From Polytrichum commune (taxonomy: Eukaryota > Streptophyta > Polytrichopsida > Polytrichales > Polytrichaceae), in NCBI GenBank assembly GCA_950295325.1, contig OX485803.1, forward strand, positions 50,733,554-50,797,553: a stretch of 64,000 nt of DNA, written 5' to 3'. A program made the translations under genes and the position numbers. Of this stretch, positions 16,214 through 55,938 are shown one piece after another. The number at the start of each line of letters is the position of its first letter. Positions within the stretch are counted from its first letter, which is position 1. The notes beneath the pieces were generated by a model. The model had not been told where the DNA came from, made no database searches, and was given only the letters and a program-made list of their open reading frames with translations.

Positions 16214-16872
16214 GAAGGCCTCGGCCACTGGGTGTAGTTCTGGTTACAGGCAGCAAGGCCTCGGCTACTGGTTGTAGTTCTGGTTACAGGCAGCAAGGCC
16301 TCGGCCACTGGATGGTAGTTCTGGTTATAGGCAGCAAGGCCTCGGCCACTGGTGGAATTCTGGTTACATGCAGCAAGACCTCGGCCACTGGTGGAGTTCC
16401 GGTTACAGGCAGCAAGGCCTCGGCCACTGGTGGAGTTCTAGTTATAGGCAGCAAGGCCTCGGCCACTGGTGGAGTTCTGGTTATAGGCAGCAAGGCCTCG
16501 GCCACTGGTGGAGTTCTGGTTACAGGCAGCAAGGCCTCGGCCACTGGTGGAGTTCTGGTTACAGGCAGCAAGGCCTCGGCCACTGGTGGAGTTCTGGTTA
16601 CAGGCAGCAAGGCCTCGGCCACTGGTGGAGTTCTGGTTATAGGCAGCAAGGCCTCGGCCACTGGTGGAGTTCTGGTTATAGGCAGCAAGGCCTCGGCCAC
16701 TGGTGGAGTTCTGGTTACAGGCAGCAAGGCCTCGGCCACTGGTTGTAGTTCTGGTTACAGGCAGCAAGGCCTCGGCCACTGGTGGAGTTCGGGTTACTCG
16801 GCAGCAAGGCCTCGGCCACTGGTTGGAGTTCTGGTTACCGGCAGCAAGGCCTAGGCCAACTGGCTTGGAGTT
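16214..16872. repeat. 39-bp minisatellite, about 17 units
   Basis: Head-to-tail units built on GCAAGGCCTCGGCCACTGG followed by TGGAGTTCTGGTTACAG. Most units are exactly 39 bases, so every frame stays periodic and long frames appear on both strands (repeating VLVTGSKASATGG forward and NQNSTSGRGLAAC in reverse). Units differ mainly by TTACAGG versus TTATAGG; the outermost units are the most diverged, as expected for an array homogenised from the centre. The array is much more GC-rich than its surroundings. There is no sign that it is translated. Confidence 0.95.
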
Positions 16873-28651: not shown

Positions 28652-30440
28652 CGTCAACTTCATGGGGGGAACAAGCATAAATGAGGAGTCTTTCTTTGCA
28701 TGTTGGATACTGTGACCTTTTGGTAGGAAATGTTGTGACGGGTTCCACTGAGTATCGTGCTACTGTAGATAAGGGTTGGTTGGATAAAAATGGTGTGGGT
28801 GGGGATCTTGGGTGTGAGGTTGGGTACGAGGTTGGGTGTATGGGGTGGGCTTGTTTCTTCAACTGCCTCATTCAAGCTCCATGACTTCAAAATTAATAAG
28901 GCAACATTTGTTCACATGATTGGGTTAGAGTATCTATAACATTGTTAAGCTACTTATAGGGTCACTGCTAGTTGAAGAATTAAAAACCATTGCAACAAGA
29001 ATAATGGGTTGATTCCATATGCCTTAAGGTTGAATCTAGCTAATCTTGAATCACACTTACCCTAAATATGCTACCTTTATGGAGCCAGTACCCAAGCCAA
29101 GTGGCTTAGGCTTGTAGGGATTGTTAAGATTGATCAGGGCCCCACTAAGCCTGAGATTAATCTTTACACTAAGGAAAAATACCCTCAAGGTTGACCAACA
29201 TAGAGTCATGTTGCATTCAGGAGAGGAAGAACATGCATGATTGCCACTGGTAGGAGTACGTTGCAAAGCAAGAACCCTCCACCATGACCCATTCTTGAGA
29301 AATGGCATGGTATGCTCATCCCTAGTCTCAAGTAGAACTGGGGCAATGTTAGGGATAGAAGTAGAGTCAAGGAGGAATAATATGGTCTTTGTGGCATAAA
29401 GTGGTCGTGGTTAACTTGTGGAGAGCTAGATTCATTACCAATCTTGATAACAAATGCTACATGAGAAATCGTGGCATCTTGGAGACCATTGCTCATATGT
29501 TTTGAGATTGCCGGTTTGCAAAAGGGGAATGGGAGTTTTTGGTTGCCATTGGGAATAGTTTGAAACTAATTGGTGAGGCCCTTGGAGACCTCTTGATTGG
29601 CAACATGGGATTTGCAGTAAGAAATTTTTGTTGCCCTAAACTAATTTCTCTATGAATTGGCTTCTTCTTAGAGGCATGACCCTCTGGACCATTTGACTTC
29701 AAAATTTTGACCTTACCTTCAATAATACTAAATAGGATGGTTGGGGGTTGCACTATATGTAAGTTGTTCATATCATGTGTGACAAATGGGCAATTTCAAG
29801 AGAAGCCATAATCAATACATACATTCTTAGAATGTTTCTAGGATATTCCCTAAATGAAAATATTACCCTATTTTCTATCATTTATTCTATTAAATTGACA
29901 TCCAAAGATAATATGGGACCCTATCATTACACCTCACATGTGATTTTCTAATACCTCTAGAATGCCCCCCTCCCCCAAAGATGGGAAAAACAATGATGAG
30001 GCTTGCTTCAATATGCTAGAATTGTGTGGGAGAAGGTGGTGAAAGATGCAGAGAAGCCCTCTTGTTATGATGATTTTCTTGAAACATCGACATACATTGG
30101 GGTGCCAACATTCTCCTCTATCATCGGCTCAATCCAAATTTTCTTAAAATGTCATTTGTCATATGTCTCCTTAGTTTATCATGCTTAGAATTAGTCTTAC
30201 CCTTCTTGAAATTGTGTGCACACCAAGAAAGCTACCCCTCTCTTTGTTTCAAGTCTTGATGGCCCTGTTTGACTTTTTGACAATGAATAAGCATTGTATT
30301 TGTATATAAATTAATTAATTACATGGAAACTTCCTGAAGCTACATGTTTACAGTTTAGGCAAAGGGTTAAGTAACATACTTGAGTCTTAAACAATGTTAT
30401 TTCAGTTCTCCCTGGCATTGGCTATGACTGTATAGTGGCA
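27402..30440. other. Intergenic, nothing recognised
   Basis: A 137-codon plus-strand frame at 27563-27976 is rich in Cys, Phe and Lys and overlaps repeated TGTCAATTGACAT words; I do not think it is coding. No element ends recognised. Confidence 0.4.
28617..28651 (+). repeat. (GATA)n microsatellite
   Basis: Eight to nine perfect GATA units. Confidence 0.9.
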
Positions 30441-30577
30441 CAGACTAGTGCCTCTCAAAACCAATCACGTGTTTCAAAAAATTTCAAAGAATGAATCATG
30501 GAGAGAAAATAAATGTATCCACTTGCATGTAGTGACTTTATTGTAATGCTATGTGTAAAATTGTACATACTTGAAGG

Positions 30578-30926
30578 CTCGGGGGGGGGGGGGGGGGCAG
30601 TGTGTTACAAAGTTAAGGATATAGGTGCGAACAACCACTATTTTATAGGGGGGTATTACTTTCAATTCTCTTCTTTTTTTCACATGCTATCATTATGTAA
30701 ATTTCTACTTTGGGTTAATAGAAAAATGACTTGCATTACTTATAATTCCAAATTACCTATTATTCCATACCCTATAGTACTTTAAAGATGTCCAATGCCA
30801 TTTTTGATACCCTATATTACTCTTAAGTCCATTTATAATTTTTAGCCCCCATGTTTTTAAAATACCCTATCATTTGTTCGCACGTATATTGCTACTCCAA
30901 CCAATGACTACCCCCCCCCCCCCAAG
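30578..30926. mobile_element. hAT-type MITE with poly-G ends, nested in the Tc1 element
   Basis: The left end is CTC followed by 17 G and CAGTGTG; the right end, reversed, is CTTG with a run of G then TAGTCATTGG. Further in, both arms share ATA(G/C)GTGCGAACAA. The element is flanked by a perfect 8-base direct repeat CTTGAAGG (30570-30577 and 30927-30934), the duplication length of hAT transposons. The end CTYGGGGGG is shared with the element at 43639-43799. No coding capacity. Confidence 0.8.
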
Positions 30927-31030
30927 CTTGAAGGAAATTCCATCCATAATAGAGTCTAAACAAATTGCAAGAAATTCTGAAAGACTGCTTGTATAATTGA
31001 TCAAATTTGTAACTACAAGAAGAAAATCAC

Positions 31031-31577
31031 CTAATATTTTGTCCACTTTCCTTTTTTTGCTATCACATCTACAATTCGACATGGGATACTTTCTACAAGC
31101 CTCTTACAATCATTTGAAGTGATAGAATAAAAAATTGACTATTCGATCCCACAATTTTATTTGCAGGTTTCTCATATTGAGTCAATTGCCGTTTAAGAAT
31201 TGCCCACAAATGTTCAATGGGATTCAATTCGGGGGATTGAGTTGGCCAAGGTAGAAGAGTGAAACATTGCCTTAAGAATCATTTTTGAAGCATCTTTGTT
31301 GTGTGTCCATGGGCATTATCTTGTTGCAATATGACACAAGAAGGGTCTAAATAAATTTTTTGAATTGGCCTACAAACATTTTGTTCTAAGATTTCACGAT
31401 AGGGATGTTGGTTTATGCGCCCTTCTACTTCACATACCAATCTAGGTCCATGAATACACATGCTTCCCCAAATCATATTTCTTTCTAATGTTGTGCACAC
31501 TCCCGATGCTCACATTCAAAACCCTTGCTATTTCTCTATGCCCATACCCTCTCTAAAGTGTACATTCTCTTGCTTCT
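31031..31577 (-). pseudogene. Tc1-type transposase relic
   Basis: Read on the minus strand: a helix-turn-helix (GYGHREIARVLNVSIGSV) with an upstream in-frame TAG, then directly MIWGSMCIHGP, GRINQHPYREILEQNV, the second catalytic aspartate in VILQQDNAHGHTTKM, a TGA stop at 31279-31281 where Trp is expected, FTLLPWPTQSPELNPIEHLW with the catalytic glutamate, a frameshift near 31150, and a C-terminus NDCKRLVESIPCRIVDVIA then KKGKWTKY before TAG at 31031-31033. The aspartate-to-glutamate interval holds exactly 34 residues, the Tc1 signature. About 120 codons between helix-turn-helix and catalytic core, including the first catalytic aspartate, are deleted. The protein cannot be active. Confidence 0.88.
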
Positions 31578-31948
31578 CTTTATATAAAGCTCTCGTCATG
31601 TTCTGTACTAATAGGAAGGCCAAGAAATCATGCACACATGTTCTACACAACATGCAATAAGTACTTGTGACGGTTCTCTTCATAAGATGTGCACATTAGC
31701 TCACAAATAGATATGAGAGCAGTCATGCTATATGGTTACAAAACTGATCAAATGAAGAAGATGACTTTTGACGTTCCATTTGTACATGAGCATGCACTGA
31801 CATGTGTGTATCTTACTGATTCATGTTCCTAACTCGGAATAGAAACTTATTAAACCTCGATCTTGGGACTTACATGTGTCAATTTTGCTCAAATAGACAC
31901 TGGAATATCAAACTTCTGGACCCTTGATCAGTTTTGAGAGGCACTGTA

Positions 31949-33292
31949 ATCACCGAAGGTGCACGAACAGTAGCTACATTCCAATTTGTCATGTTTGCTG
32001 GCTCGGTTAGAAAACACAAACAGATGAAGTTGGTGATACCGTGACAAGCACAAGAGATGTAAATTTCAATTTGGACTCATTGCCAGATTTTGGATGACAG
32101 GCTTCAAGTTCCCCCTCATGGTTAGGAATCACAAAGAATATAACACTGTCGGGGAACCAAATTGCCAAAACTTCTACACAATGTATTTTATTGCAAAGTG
32201 GCTCCCAGAACATGTTCTTACTTGTATTAATTTAAAGTGGTGTTCTAAGGTGGGACAAAAAAAAAAAAACTCCCAAAATTGCACCAGATACGTGGTAGAT
32301 TCCTAGTTGTTTTCTCTCCATTTCCATATGAAAATGTAACAGGGTTGGTTGGTTAATGGGACCACTTCATGTCAGTAAACCAACTTTTTTTTTTTTGGTA
32401 GTATTTTTTTTCTCAAATAATGGATCATGATTATATCTTCTTTAATTGCAGCTCCTAATTGTTATTTATTGAATTCCAAATTACTTCCAAAAGCTCTATT
32501 GATCGATGTATACAAAAGTACTTACTACGCCTTACCATGAAATTCGGCAAAAGTAAATACATACAAGTCACTTCAACTATATAAACCACATTCAGGTACA
32601 TGAAACGGAGATCATGAAATCATGGTACATCACTAGTGGACAATGGTTGGAACATTGAAGCACCAGCGGAACAATTTGGTACCAAAAAAATTTGGATTGT
32701 GTGACACAGACCAAACCTATTCCACTCACCGATTTTGTTTCTGTATAGAGATTTGACTTATTCTTTTTTCTCATTTAGTTATACTATTGTGCCAAATATA
32801 CAGCCACATGTTGGGTGGGGAGGGGGGGGGGGCTCTTGAGGTTTTCCTGATGCACTCAAATACACATTTTAAATCTCACATCTCACAACTAGCACAAACA
32901 TGTTTTGGACGAGTTTTTGTCAATAGCTAAAGAACGATATAGCTTGTGAAGAGGAGAAATGATGATGAAATCGAATAATGTCCGTGAAATTTTTTGAAGC
33001 GACAACCAACAAATGTCACATTTGGTGAGAATAAGTGAACTTAGGTCAAAACCTATGAGGGAGCAACAACCAGGGTTGCAATACAAGGTTGCAAGATCTT
33101 TGAATGAGCGAACCCCCTATTACAATAGAATGCTTGCTGAGACATCTCAAAGGCCTGAGCAAAAAGATGAAACCTTACAAACCCTAAACAACAACGTCAA
33201 TGACAAAACATAGGCTTTTGGGAAGAGGTTGGAATTAGCAACCTTAAACCTTACCGGGGTTGGATTGGAAAGTCAAGCGCAGTGGTCCCGGG
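31949..33292. other. Intergenic, nothing recognised
   Basis: Poly-T/A tracts near 32253 and 32384 and a G-run at about 32820-32832. No supported gene. Confidence 0.4.
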
Positions 33293-33521
33293 CATAGTCC
33301 GGGAAGAACCGGCGCTTAGTTATAGATGAACCGTTTGAGTTTGAGAAATAACCGGTTGAAGTTGGCGACTTCAGGAGAATTACCGATCATGTTAGAGGAC
33401 TCTATGGAATATACCGTGAATGAATGAAAGCAAAACCGGAAGATGTCAACGTGTAACCGGCTGGATTTAGAATCACTAGGATCTTCACCGACTAGTATGC
33501 CCAAAAACTTAGCGGGCACTG
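33293..33521 (+). mobile_element. hAT-type MITE, AACCGGTT family
   Basis: 229 bp, starting CATAGTCCGGGAAGAACC and ending GCGGGCACTG, flanked by GTCCCGGG (33285-33292) and GTCCTGGG (33522-33529), a 7/8 match. The body matches 49406-49640 closely (GAGTTTGAGAAATAACCGG, AGAATCACTAGGATCTTC). Confidence 0.85.
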
Positions 33522-52325: not shown

Positions 52326-55300
52326 TCAGACCTCTTGAAGCCAGGATTGGCCATCAATCCAGCTGAGCTGTAAGAATTGCTGGGCTTCACTGTCGCTTAG
52401 TTCATGTGACCATTGAACTCGTTGTGCAGCATTTGATCCTGGCCCTGAGCATTGGTATTGTCCATAATACACAGTGCTGTTGCATCACAGACACAATTCT
52501 TTATGCATTAGTACCGAGGGGAGGGTAAACTAGAAAACGTGGTTTGATAAAAAGATAGGGTCCCATTCAAAATCTTGAAGTAAGATTTTTGGAATTATTA
52601 GAAACAGCTACGGTATCAATAACTTATTTTGAGAGAATATTCGTTGAATGTGTGGAATATCCCATGAAAACGTGCGCATTACTTCATAGCCCTTGAAAAT
52701 ACCCCAATATTGCACGTGACCCCTTATATTATCAGGGAGTTATCCTCGTGATTAGTACCAACAAATAGGTGTAGATTACAAGCCTTCAAGTTTCATAAAG
52801 TGTATTTATAAGAAGTAATGAAATGATTGAGTGCCATGATAATGAAATGATAGCTCTTGTTTCCTACGAACCCTTATACTTGTAGGTGACCAATAGAGTG
52901 ATCCTGTAACTCAACAAGACTTTTGATGAGGACAGTTCATTTGTTTTGCATACAATATCTTCCATGTTCGGTGAGTTTTGGGTGCAGGTATTGTAGAGGT
53001 TTGAACAAAAAATATTGTATATTGGTTCATTGAGGTCGAACTCTTTCTCGCACGCCAAGAGATGCTAAATTGAGTTTGGCCTTCAATAAATTAGCATAGG
53101 TTGCTCTTCGTTCAGATTAAACAGTACATCCGAGCATGCACCATCACAAGTGGAAAGAAATTATCGATATGGTATGCAAAATAACCAATGGAAAATCATA
53201 GGGGACCAACTCCCGATCAAAAGTCCCATTGAGTTAAGTGAAAAGCCAATCCTCCCATGATGATGTTTGGATTTTTTTGTGCAAGGTGCAAATGTTAATG
53301 TGCTGTTGATAATCACAAACAAGGCAGTCAATTGACGATGCTCTTCACAAGCACAACGAACGCCACCCTCTGAAAAAAAACTCCATAGCTCAAACTGTAC
53401 ATGACAAAGCCTTGCAAATATAAATTCTACAATCAACAAAGGTGAATTAAGTGCAAGATGAGGAGCATACCGTTCTCGAGAGGGGTTGGACCAGTCCTGC
53501 CAGCCTGCAGGAATTATGATGTCATTCATGTAGGTGTATAAGTAAACTACCCGGGAATATGGTCCCCATGCTCGCCCCAAGAATACTTGCCCTGTTCCAG
53601 TGATCATACAGTTGATGAACACAAATCCTGTGTTCTCCGCCGAGCTCGACCTCTTCTGTGCAGTGATTGACCCTGAAATGTAGTTTTGTGTGGCAATCTC
53701 ATGCAGCTCACAGCTCTGCGTGTAGCAACAAGTGAATCAATCGATGAATCAAGGACCTGTGTGAGTGGTAAAAAAGAGCAGCATTGCTGAACAAGTACAC
53801 TAAACATCTGATTTAGTGTGGCATTAAGATTGGTATGCCATGTATTTATTAGAGTGGTCACCATGACTTGTCATTTAGCAGCAGCAAGTATCACACATGA
53901 CACCCTCTCTAGTTGCCACTTTGTGATCGTAAGATCAATAATGCGGGTCGATGATGTCAATAATGTTGGGTGTAACTCCACACAATTCACGAAAGGGAAG
54001 ACGAATGATGATGTATGGCTGTACCTTGAACACAGACTGACCATTTCCCGAAATGATGTCGATGTTCCCTTCAAAGTAGCAGTCCTTGAAGTAATGGCGA
54101 CCCGAATAGTCGAATAGAGTGTCTTGTCCTCCGTAGAATCCACAGCCATAGAAAGCTGCCTTATCATTAGCTAAGAGCACTGCCACTGCCTGCCCATTCA
54201 CTTGCCCAGGTGCCGCTGGAGGTGCTGCATTCTGCACTTGCAGGTCACAAACCTTGTGATGATCATGGCATTCTGGACAACATGGACTGAACCACTTAGG
54301 ACCTACACAAAAACAAGACAATGACATTACCCTCTTTCCTCAGTTGCCAAGCGGCACATACACAAAGACGTGAGCCCAGAGCATTAAATGAGTTAGTTCA
54401 CCAGTTGCAACTCATCCGGTGGTTTTAGGGTAGACGTTTCACTAGGGTTTCTGGAGTACACTCATACATACCTGGAAACCTATGCCTCTGGCTATGAAGT
54501 TATCAGCCCACACCGTAACGGTTGCACTGTTTGCAGTCCCGGACTTACTGGCTGTATCACTGTATGAAATCATGGTGGACAACCGTCCTTCGCCTTGAAG
54601 TAACACAAAGGGTTTGGTGTATGGGATGACCACTTTCTCTCTGCATTTCATTACATTTGTAGAGTTAGCTTCTTCAGCTCATTACACTAAAGAACAGGTG
54701 TAACCTAATGAGGGAGAAGGCAAAACAACATAAGCAAAGCCATGGCTGTACATAACAGAACCCCATTAGCTTTTGCAACTTAATCACAAATTTCGCGGAT
54801 TACTGAATACTTTTCATAATCGTTGCGCCAACAAATTATCCCACTCATTGGAAAACATTCATTGTGCATGATCGAGTCCTTGGAGCTTTAAGAACCTACA
54901 GTCAGTAATCCATCAAATTTTGGCAAATTGAAGAGATGCGGCAAGAAAAAGATTCATTCTGCCACTGTACACAGAGAATTTTATTTATCTTCGGGTTTCA
55001 AAAAGATGGACATTTCCTCAACTACTCAGCCGAATACATATGGCCAAAATTCTTTCCTAAATGTCAAGGTAATAGAACCCCTAATCTTTCCATAGAATAG
55101 TCTGCAGGCAGGTCACTTCATCATAACCCTTCACATCTTTCTTCATTGTAATGAAACACAATCTGCTTTGACCCTCCGGCCATGTTGCTTTTTGACAATG
55201 ATGATGTCAATGGGTGCATTGCAAATCAAAAATGGCAAAATGGTGTTTTACTCACCCATGGAGTTTTACTGTCAAGGATTCTGAAACGCATGAACATCAC

Positions 55301-55795
55301 TTAAACCACGCCATACGCAGGTGCTATTCGCAAAATTCGGCGAGCCACACAAGTATACATGAAACAACAGCAGAAGAAGAAGTCATGGAAATCGGTGAAA
55401 GGGTTCAGTAAGTGGTACCGATATACGCCGGCTTGTATGGAGATCTCCACCCACTGGGCATTGTTGTCCGGTACGGAGTTCACCGCTTCCTGGATGGAAT
55501 TGAACATGGTGCCGCCATGTTTGCCCACTGTTATGTATCCTGCGTGACCGGGGAGCTGCTGGTTCTTGGTGGAGAGAGGGTGGCCATTCTTGTGGTGATG
55601 ACCATGGCCGGGAGCTGCCCATAGACTACTGCTCTCTTCACTCTGTGCTGCAGGAACATACTCCACAGGTTGGGTGGAGGCGAAGGCGGATTTCAGGCTG
55701 CTCAAATCCCTTGCGTGGCAGAGGAGTAGGTTTCCGTAAAGGAAAATGACTCCCAGAATTAATGTTACGAAATCTGTCCTCGGAGGTCGTGTCAT
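52326..55795 (-). CDS. Pectin methylesterase (carbohydrate esterase family 8), five exons, 382 aa
   Basis: Complete minus-strand gene. Exons: 55795-55419, 54640-54472, 54231-54025, 53715-53471 and 52476-52326; all introns are GT-AG and phases join cleanly. The enzyme demethylates homogalacturonan in the cell wall. Residues 1-28 form a signal peptide ending LLLCHA. A short His-rich stretch (GHGHHHKNGH) follows, and there is no inhibitor-like pro-domain, so it is a short (type II) form. The catalytic domain begins ITVGKHGG. The expected active-site residues are all present: Gln196 (GQAVAV), Gln218 and Asp219 (GGQDTLF), Asp240 (GNIDIISG) and Arg299 (LGRAWG). The usual IDFIFG reads IDIISG. The last exon encodes VYYGQYQCSGPG, RVQWSHELSD and LSWIDGQSWL. 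The start is the ATG at 55793-55795. Confidence 0.94.
53795..53975 (+). mobile_element. Possible CTACACTAAA-type MITE in intron 3 of the methylesterase gene
   Basis: GTACACTAAACATCTG and TTTAGTGTGGCATTA at 53795-53825 match the end of the family; the reversed sequence at about 53950-53975 (TTACACCCAACATTATTGAC) is a weak partner. It would account for most of the 309-base intron. Confidence 0.35.
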
Positions 55796-55938
55796 GGTAA
55801 TCTGCAACCCTAGTTAAAACTTCAACAATGTTGACGATGTTTTGTTGTTGATTAGTGGGTTTGCCGTGAGCCGTCACATGAGTGTTATGAAGTCAACAAT
55901 ATACCATCAGAGGTAGACTGGACCGGCAATCTGCAAAA

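Follow-up and report, generated by a model that had tools for sequence, protein, structure and literature searches.

Tc1-like elements with a DD34E transposase have already been described in a moss. Liu and Yang (2014, PMC4054914) report PpTc1 (1,584 bp) and PpTc2 (1,709 bp) of Physcomitrium patens with CAGT ends and TA target sites, and they also found pieces of transposase in nine angiosperm sequence databases. The two moss elements are described as young, with full-length copies averaging 96.3 and 96.6% identity and some intact frames of 338 aa. A later study reports that PpTc2 is transcribed, that PpTc1 is transcribed too, perhaps by read-through, and that PpTc1 shows insertion polymorphism; in 2020 it proposed a fungal origin by transfer for the moss elements (PMC7466625). 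Archaeplastids are counted among the new hosts of Tc1 in a survey whose PlantMar family, as described there, lists no bryophyte (PMC7325037).

The element reported here lies in a window of 64,000 nts, by which we mean the whole stretch of DNA analysed, and its features are collected in Table 1. It almost certainly belongs, as a dead copy, to an old Tc1-like (DD34E) cut-and-paste family of low copy number that is resident in a moss-like genome. The family resembles PpTc1 and PpTc2, as those are described, in its DD34E transposase, TA duplications, moss host and, where they are kept, CAGT ends, and the five sister copies L001-L005 are of similar length (1,554-1,624 bp). It differs from them in that none of eight sister loci has an uninterrupted frame; the comparison is one of descriptions, not of sequence identity. 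The original prediction suggested that this element could mean horizontal transfer or an unsampled plant lineage of Tc1. Both ideas are already in print; Tc1-like DD34E elements of plants, a moss among them, were published in 2014 (PMC4054914). Because Tc1 elements have been known in mosses since then, the window element is an ordinary new example and no surprise, and taken singly it has no special importance. What is new is that a relic family of greater age shares one genome with several other Tc1 lineages. We found no description of the window family in the literature, which could not be queried by sequence.

Table 1. Features of the Tc1-type element and of the insertion nested in it, in window positions.
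Feature	Position	Strand	Basis or remark
Decayed Tc1-type element	30448-31946	- (transposase sense)	Borders match sister alignments
TA target duplication, left copy	30446-30447		Direct reading
TA target duplication, right copy	31947-31948		Direct reading; TA here in 8/8 sister loci
Left terminal inverted repeat, transposase 3' side	30448-30472		Sister comparison; without terminal CA
Right terminal inverted repeat, transposase 5' side	31920-31946		- strand reads CAGTGCCTCTC
Catalytic-domain remnant	31096-31509	-	DDE_3 54.4 bits; Sleeping Beauty E 2e-15
Codon of second catalytic D	31320-31318	-	
Codon of catalytic E	31215-31213	-	
TGA stop between D and E	31281-31279	-	Breaks the frame
C-terminal transposase remnant	31034-31138	-	Different frame
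Likely N-terminal helix-turn-helix remnant, 36 aa	31445-31552	-	Below all Pfam cut-offs; frame crosses the deletion point
Internal deletion point	31477/31478		420-449 bp missing relative to L001-L005 and L007; first catalytic D lost
Nested MITE, 349 bp	30578-30926		Not Tc1 sequence; sisters without insert
8-bp target duplication of MITE, left copy	30570-30577		CTTGAAGG
8-bp target duplication of MITE, right copy	30927-30934		CTTGAAGG

The inverted repeats, computed as 26 nts with 85% complementarity (30447-30472 against 31920-31945), fall within the 12-28 nts given as typical of the superfamily (PMC4054914). What speaks for them is that independent copies have the same termini. The predicted TA duplication is present on both sides of the element. 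The CAGTG ends that had also been predicted hold for the right end only; at the left end TA is followed directly by GTGCC, the two bases CA being gone.

Between these ends the transposase survives in pieces. No frame of 100 aa that runs from start to stop touches 29000-33500, and the - strand of the element carries a helix-turn-helix-like piece, a stretch reading QQD...SPELNPIEHLW, which contains the expected PELNPIEHLW block, and a C-terminal piece in a different frame. The Pfam DDE_3 profile scores 53-54 bits against a cut-off of 28.6; the 54.4 bits in Table 1 were obtained with the stop codon entered as X. When PDB sequences are searched with the remnant, the best match is Sleeping Beauty (PDB 5cr4, SB100X), and Mos1 reaches only E 0.73. 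SB100X is a laboratory form of Sleeping Beauty. This Tc1 type from fish shares with the remnant the catalytic domain, the D34E arrangement and the block, read there as SPDLNPIE; it is unlike the window family in its animal host and is deeply diverged. The D-to-E spacing in the window copy is exactly 34 residues, ungapped against Sleeping Beauty, just as had been proposed.

The DD34E site as a whole is recovered in part: the second D, the E and their spacing are there, whereas the first D is deleted and a TGA falls between D and E. The full triad is absent from the window copy because the internal deletion took the first D; by eye, TAT is common to both sides of the deletion joint. The first D position reads D in L003, N in L001, L002 and L007, C in L004 and Y in L005, and the D is kept in the related locus L044. 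The piece of the window copy that corresponds to the proposed helix-turn-helix lies under every Pfam cut-off (best Sigma70_r4_2 at E 0.00081, then HTH_23 at E 0.0013), whereas HTH_Tnp_Tc3_2, with a cut-off of 31.5, gives 48.3 bits in L007 across two stops and 40 bits in L006; the open 92-aa piece of L007 alone scores 20.6 bits. With the first D missing and the helix-turn-helix below cut-off in the window copy, we infer both the triad and the helix-turn-helix from the relatives.

In the live family, the transposase would have bound the inverted repeats via N-terminal helix-turn-helix domains, its DDE catalytic site would have cut at the CAGTG ends, and insertion would have taken place at TA with duplication of the TA. 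In the window copy the middle is now gone, a stop has arisen, two terminal bases are missing and a young MITE has come in, a list that implies no order in time. The copy is dead and its transposase can no longer be made; given the damaged end, its mobilisation by the transposase of another copy appears unlikely.

A search of the genome with the element gives at least 47 matches (best 40 of 53 candidates scored). Eight of these are sister loci (L001-L008), placed on contigs C1, C4, C5 and C7 and 76-83% identical to the element over long stretches. All eight have a common 5' terminus preceded by TA. The 3' end is kept in five sisters and followed by TA in four (L001, L002, L004 and L005), L003 reading AT; the termini themselves read CAAT, CAGT and altered forms. 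The longest open frames in the eight loci are 78-122 aa. L001 and L008 (C1:56.75-56.77 Mb) have the same flank some 18 kb apart, which points to a segmental duplication, so these two copies are not independent. Among seven copies of the family (21 pairs; L006 and L008 left out, L007 over its 5' half only), K2P distances range from 0.178 to 0.272 with a mean of 0.226. Taking the formula T = K/2r and a rate r of 9e-9 from PMC7466625, we obtain an age of some 12.6 million years; the rate does not come from this species, which makes the figure rough. By this divergence the window family is old.

The family has company. DDE_3 profile matches in the genome number at least 149 (best 150 of 457 candidates scored) and HTH_Tnp_Tc3_2 matches at least 150 (best 150 of 337 candidates scored). 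We examined 40 loci among the DDE_3 matches, selected by how far the profile covered them or by resemblance to the window family and not at random, and sorted them by best-matching query and tree grouping, with family letters of our own. Twenty-four are Tc1-type (nine in family B, eight in C, four in E, two in D and one in F), four are Tc3-like, a label of this analysis given with no Tc3 sequence in the comparison, and the remaining 12 fall into a different DDE_3 group.

Families B (L014 group) and C (L028 group) are Tc1-type DD34E like the window family but unlike it are young, with mean K2P over the central 900 columns of 0.031 (36 pairs) and 0.027 (28 pairs), respectively. Some of their copies keep open transposase frames, as in L014 (404 aa) and L028 (351 aa). 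The ends of L014 and L023 read TA-CAGT on one side and ACTG-TA on the other, L036 has CAGT at both ends with TA at the left side only, and L028 and L033 have TA on both sides and one altered end each; for several other B and C rows the automatic end search picked unrelated repeats. By their sequences, both families are candidates for recent activity in this genome. The other DDE_3 group stands apart from the Tc1-type loci and includes L009-L013, L018-L021, L024, L027 and L029. The Tc1-type queries find nothing in eleven of these 12 and a single weak match of 33 bits in L027; five copies of the group (10 pairs) have a mean K2P of 0.306.

We count at least six Tc1-type lineages here, of which some are old and others young and two are known from one locus and two loci, respectively, as well as three Tc3-like lines. 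One moss-like genome can carry an old relic family together with young families with open frames, and these loci indicate that DD34E Tc1 elements are not confined to Physcomitrium among moss-like genomes. We put forward tentatively, giving it somewhat less than an even chance, the broader idea that Tc1 persists in moss-type genomes as a long-lived population of several lineages, possibly for tens of millions of years, a duration we infer. If so, Tc1 would have a lasting place in mosses, owed to transfer, old or repeated, or to descent, rather than being the rare recent arrival suggested for P. patens.

The alternative that survives best is a recent horizontal transfer of the element from an animal or a fungus into the plant, which we still consider improbable. 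It draws on the grouping of PpTc1 and PpTc2 with fungal elements, for which transfer was suggested, and on the report that a search for close relatives of the two in Marchantia, Arabidopsis and rice was negative (both PMC7466625). The mean pairwise distance within the window family and the age derived from it, at a rate not measured in this species, speak against a recent date, as do the several related lineages in the same genome. An old family with related co-residents makes a recent single arrival of the window family unlikely, though transfer at an earlier date or on several occasions may have taken place. The collection of old and young lineages is useful to anyone who asks if, and at what time, horizontal transfer brought Tc1 elements into mosses.

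A different concern is mistaken identity, with a plant mariner-like element (DD39D), or some other transposase of the DDE_3 kind, taken for Tc1. The DDE_3 profile does also cover the second group of 12 among the 40 loci of this genome. Against such a misreading stand the spacing of 34, the third residue being E, and the ungapped D-to-E alignment with Sleeping Beauty, a spacing unlike that of plant mariners as the original prediction had noted. The tree speaks in the same direction, with the limit that its references comprise one animal Tc1 row (Sleeping Beauty) and no fungal, Physcomitrium or DD39D rows. It has thirty rows and 356 columns, of which the window row occupies 38%, and leaves out L006, L007 and L008 (of these L008 is absent from the protein rows as well), four of nine family B loci, four of eight in family C, the whole L009 group of 12 and, among 13 viral loci, 10. 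The window row, five sisters and L044 group at 100/100; the window family alone has 91/81, under the starred level. The Tc1-type branch that includes Sleeping Beauty has 98/96 and the window family falls inside it. The four Tc3-like rows (98/98) stand outside this branch, as do three rows of viral contigs labelled IS630-like, and the fork at the base of the Tc1-type branch is open, so that moss lines as one group and moss lines mixed with animals are not separated. The outgroup is three of 13 distant loci from a protein scan of viral contigs, "IS630-like" being assigned by eye. In the same scan of a collection of genome contigs, 64 stretches matched and none was confirmed. Looking in both collections for one exact DNA pattern of the Tc1 block VKHGGG gave nothing, which is weak evidence because a single pattern was asked. 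With DDE_3 over its cut-off, Sleeping Beauty far ahead of Mos1 and the branch with Sleeping Beauty, the Tc1-type identity stands. We reject a DD39D or mariner identity, on the spacing and on the Sleeping Beauty and Mos1 scores and with no DD39D reference compared; a misreading of either kind is very improbable.

The element also contains a younger insertion (Table 1). This MITE ends in CTC/GAG, next to which lie stretches of 12-18 G and 12-17 C, and has at least 40 further matches at 98-99% identity (best 40 of 1609 rough candidates scored) in which all seven large contigs are represented. Eight other copies were inspected; seven have a target duplication, 8 bases long except for one that reads as 9, and L067 has none. 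The length of the duplication suggests a hAT-like MITE, apparently present in high copy number. As its matches are 98-99% identical and the sisters lack it, a young MITE landed in an old relic.

The genomic setting is that of a plant. The assembly has 407.8 Mb in 64 contigs, with seven contigs of 42-78 Mb holding nearly all of it, and the window lies inside contig C1 (77.9 Mb). A genome search with the right flank of the element returns its own match only, and one with the left flank its own match and two weak partial matches (73% and 71%). Ten open pieces of the window were compared with Pfam; four match plant-type cell-wall enzymes, namely pectate lyase (1077-1808) and, within 53164-55813 on the - strand, exons of pectinesterase, the last of which is under cut-off, and six match nothing. 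The plastid PsaA of the assembly scores highest in PDB against 8htu (1723.9 bits), followed by 6l35 (1703.6), 9lut (1698.1) and 7wfd (1651.1), among the best 60 of 171. The structure 6l35 is from P. patens (PMC7884438), and 8htu is labelled PpPSI-L (PMC10005731), a label that we read as P. patens. We regard the host as a moss. Contamination, which the original prediction wanted checked, or a misassembly joining animal or fungal DNA to plant sequence found no support in the analyses made and is rejected as having a negligible probability, since the element sits inside a very large contig, its sisters are spread over four large contigs of this genome, a second near-full copy is found for neither flank, and the nested MITE is matched on all seven large contigs; the element is integrated in a plant genome. 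Elsewhere in the window, at 16215-16872, there is a tandem array with a 39-bp unit in 16.6 copies with 93% matches.
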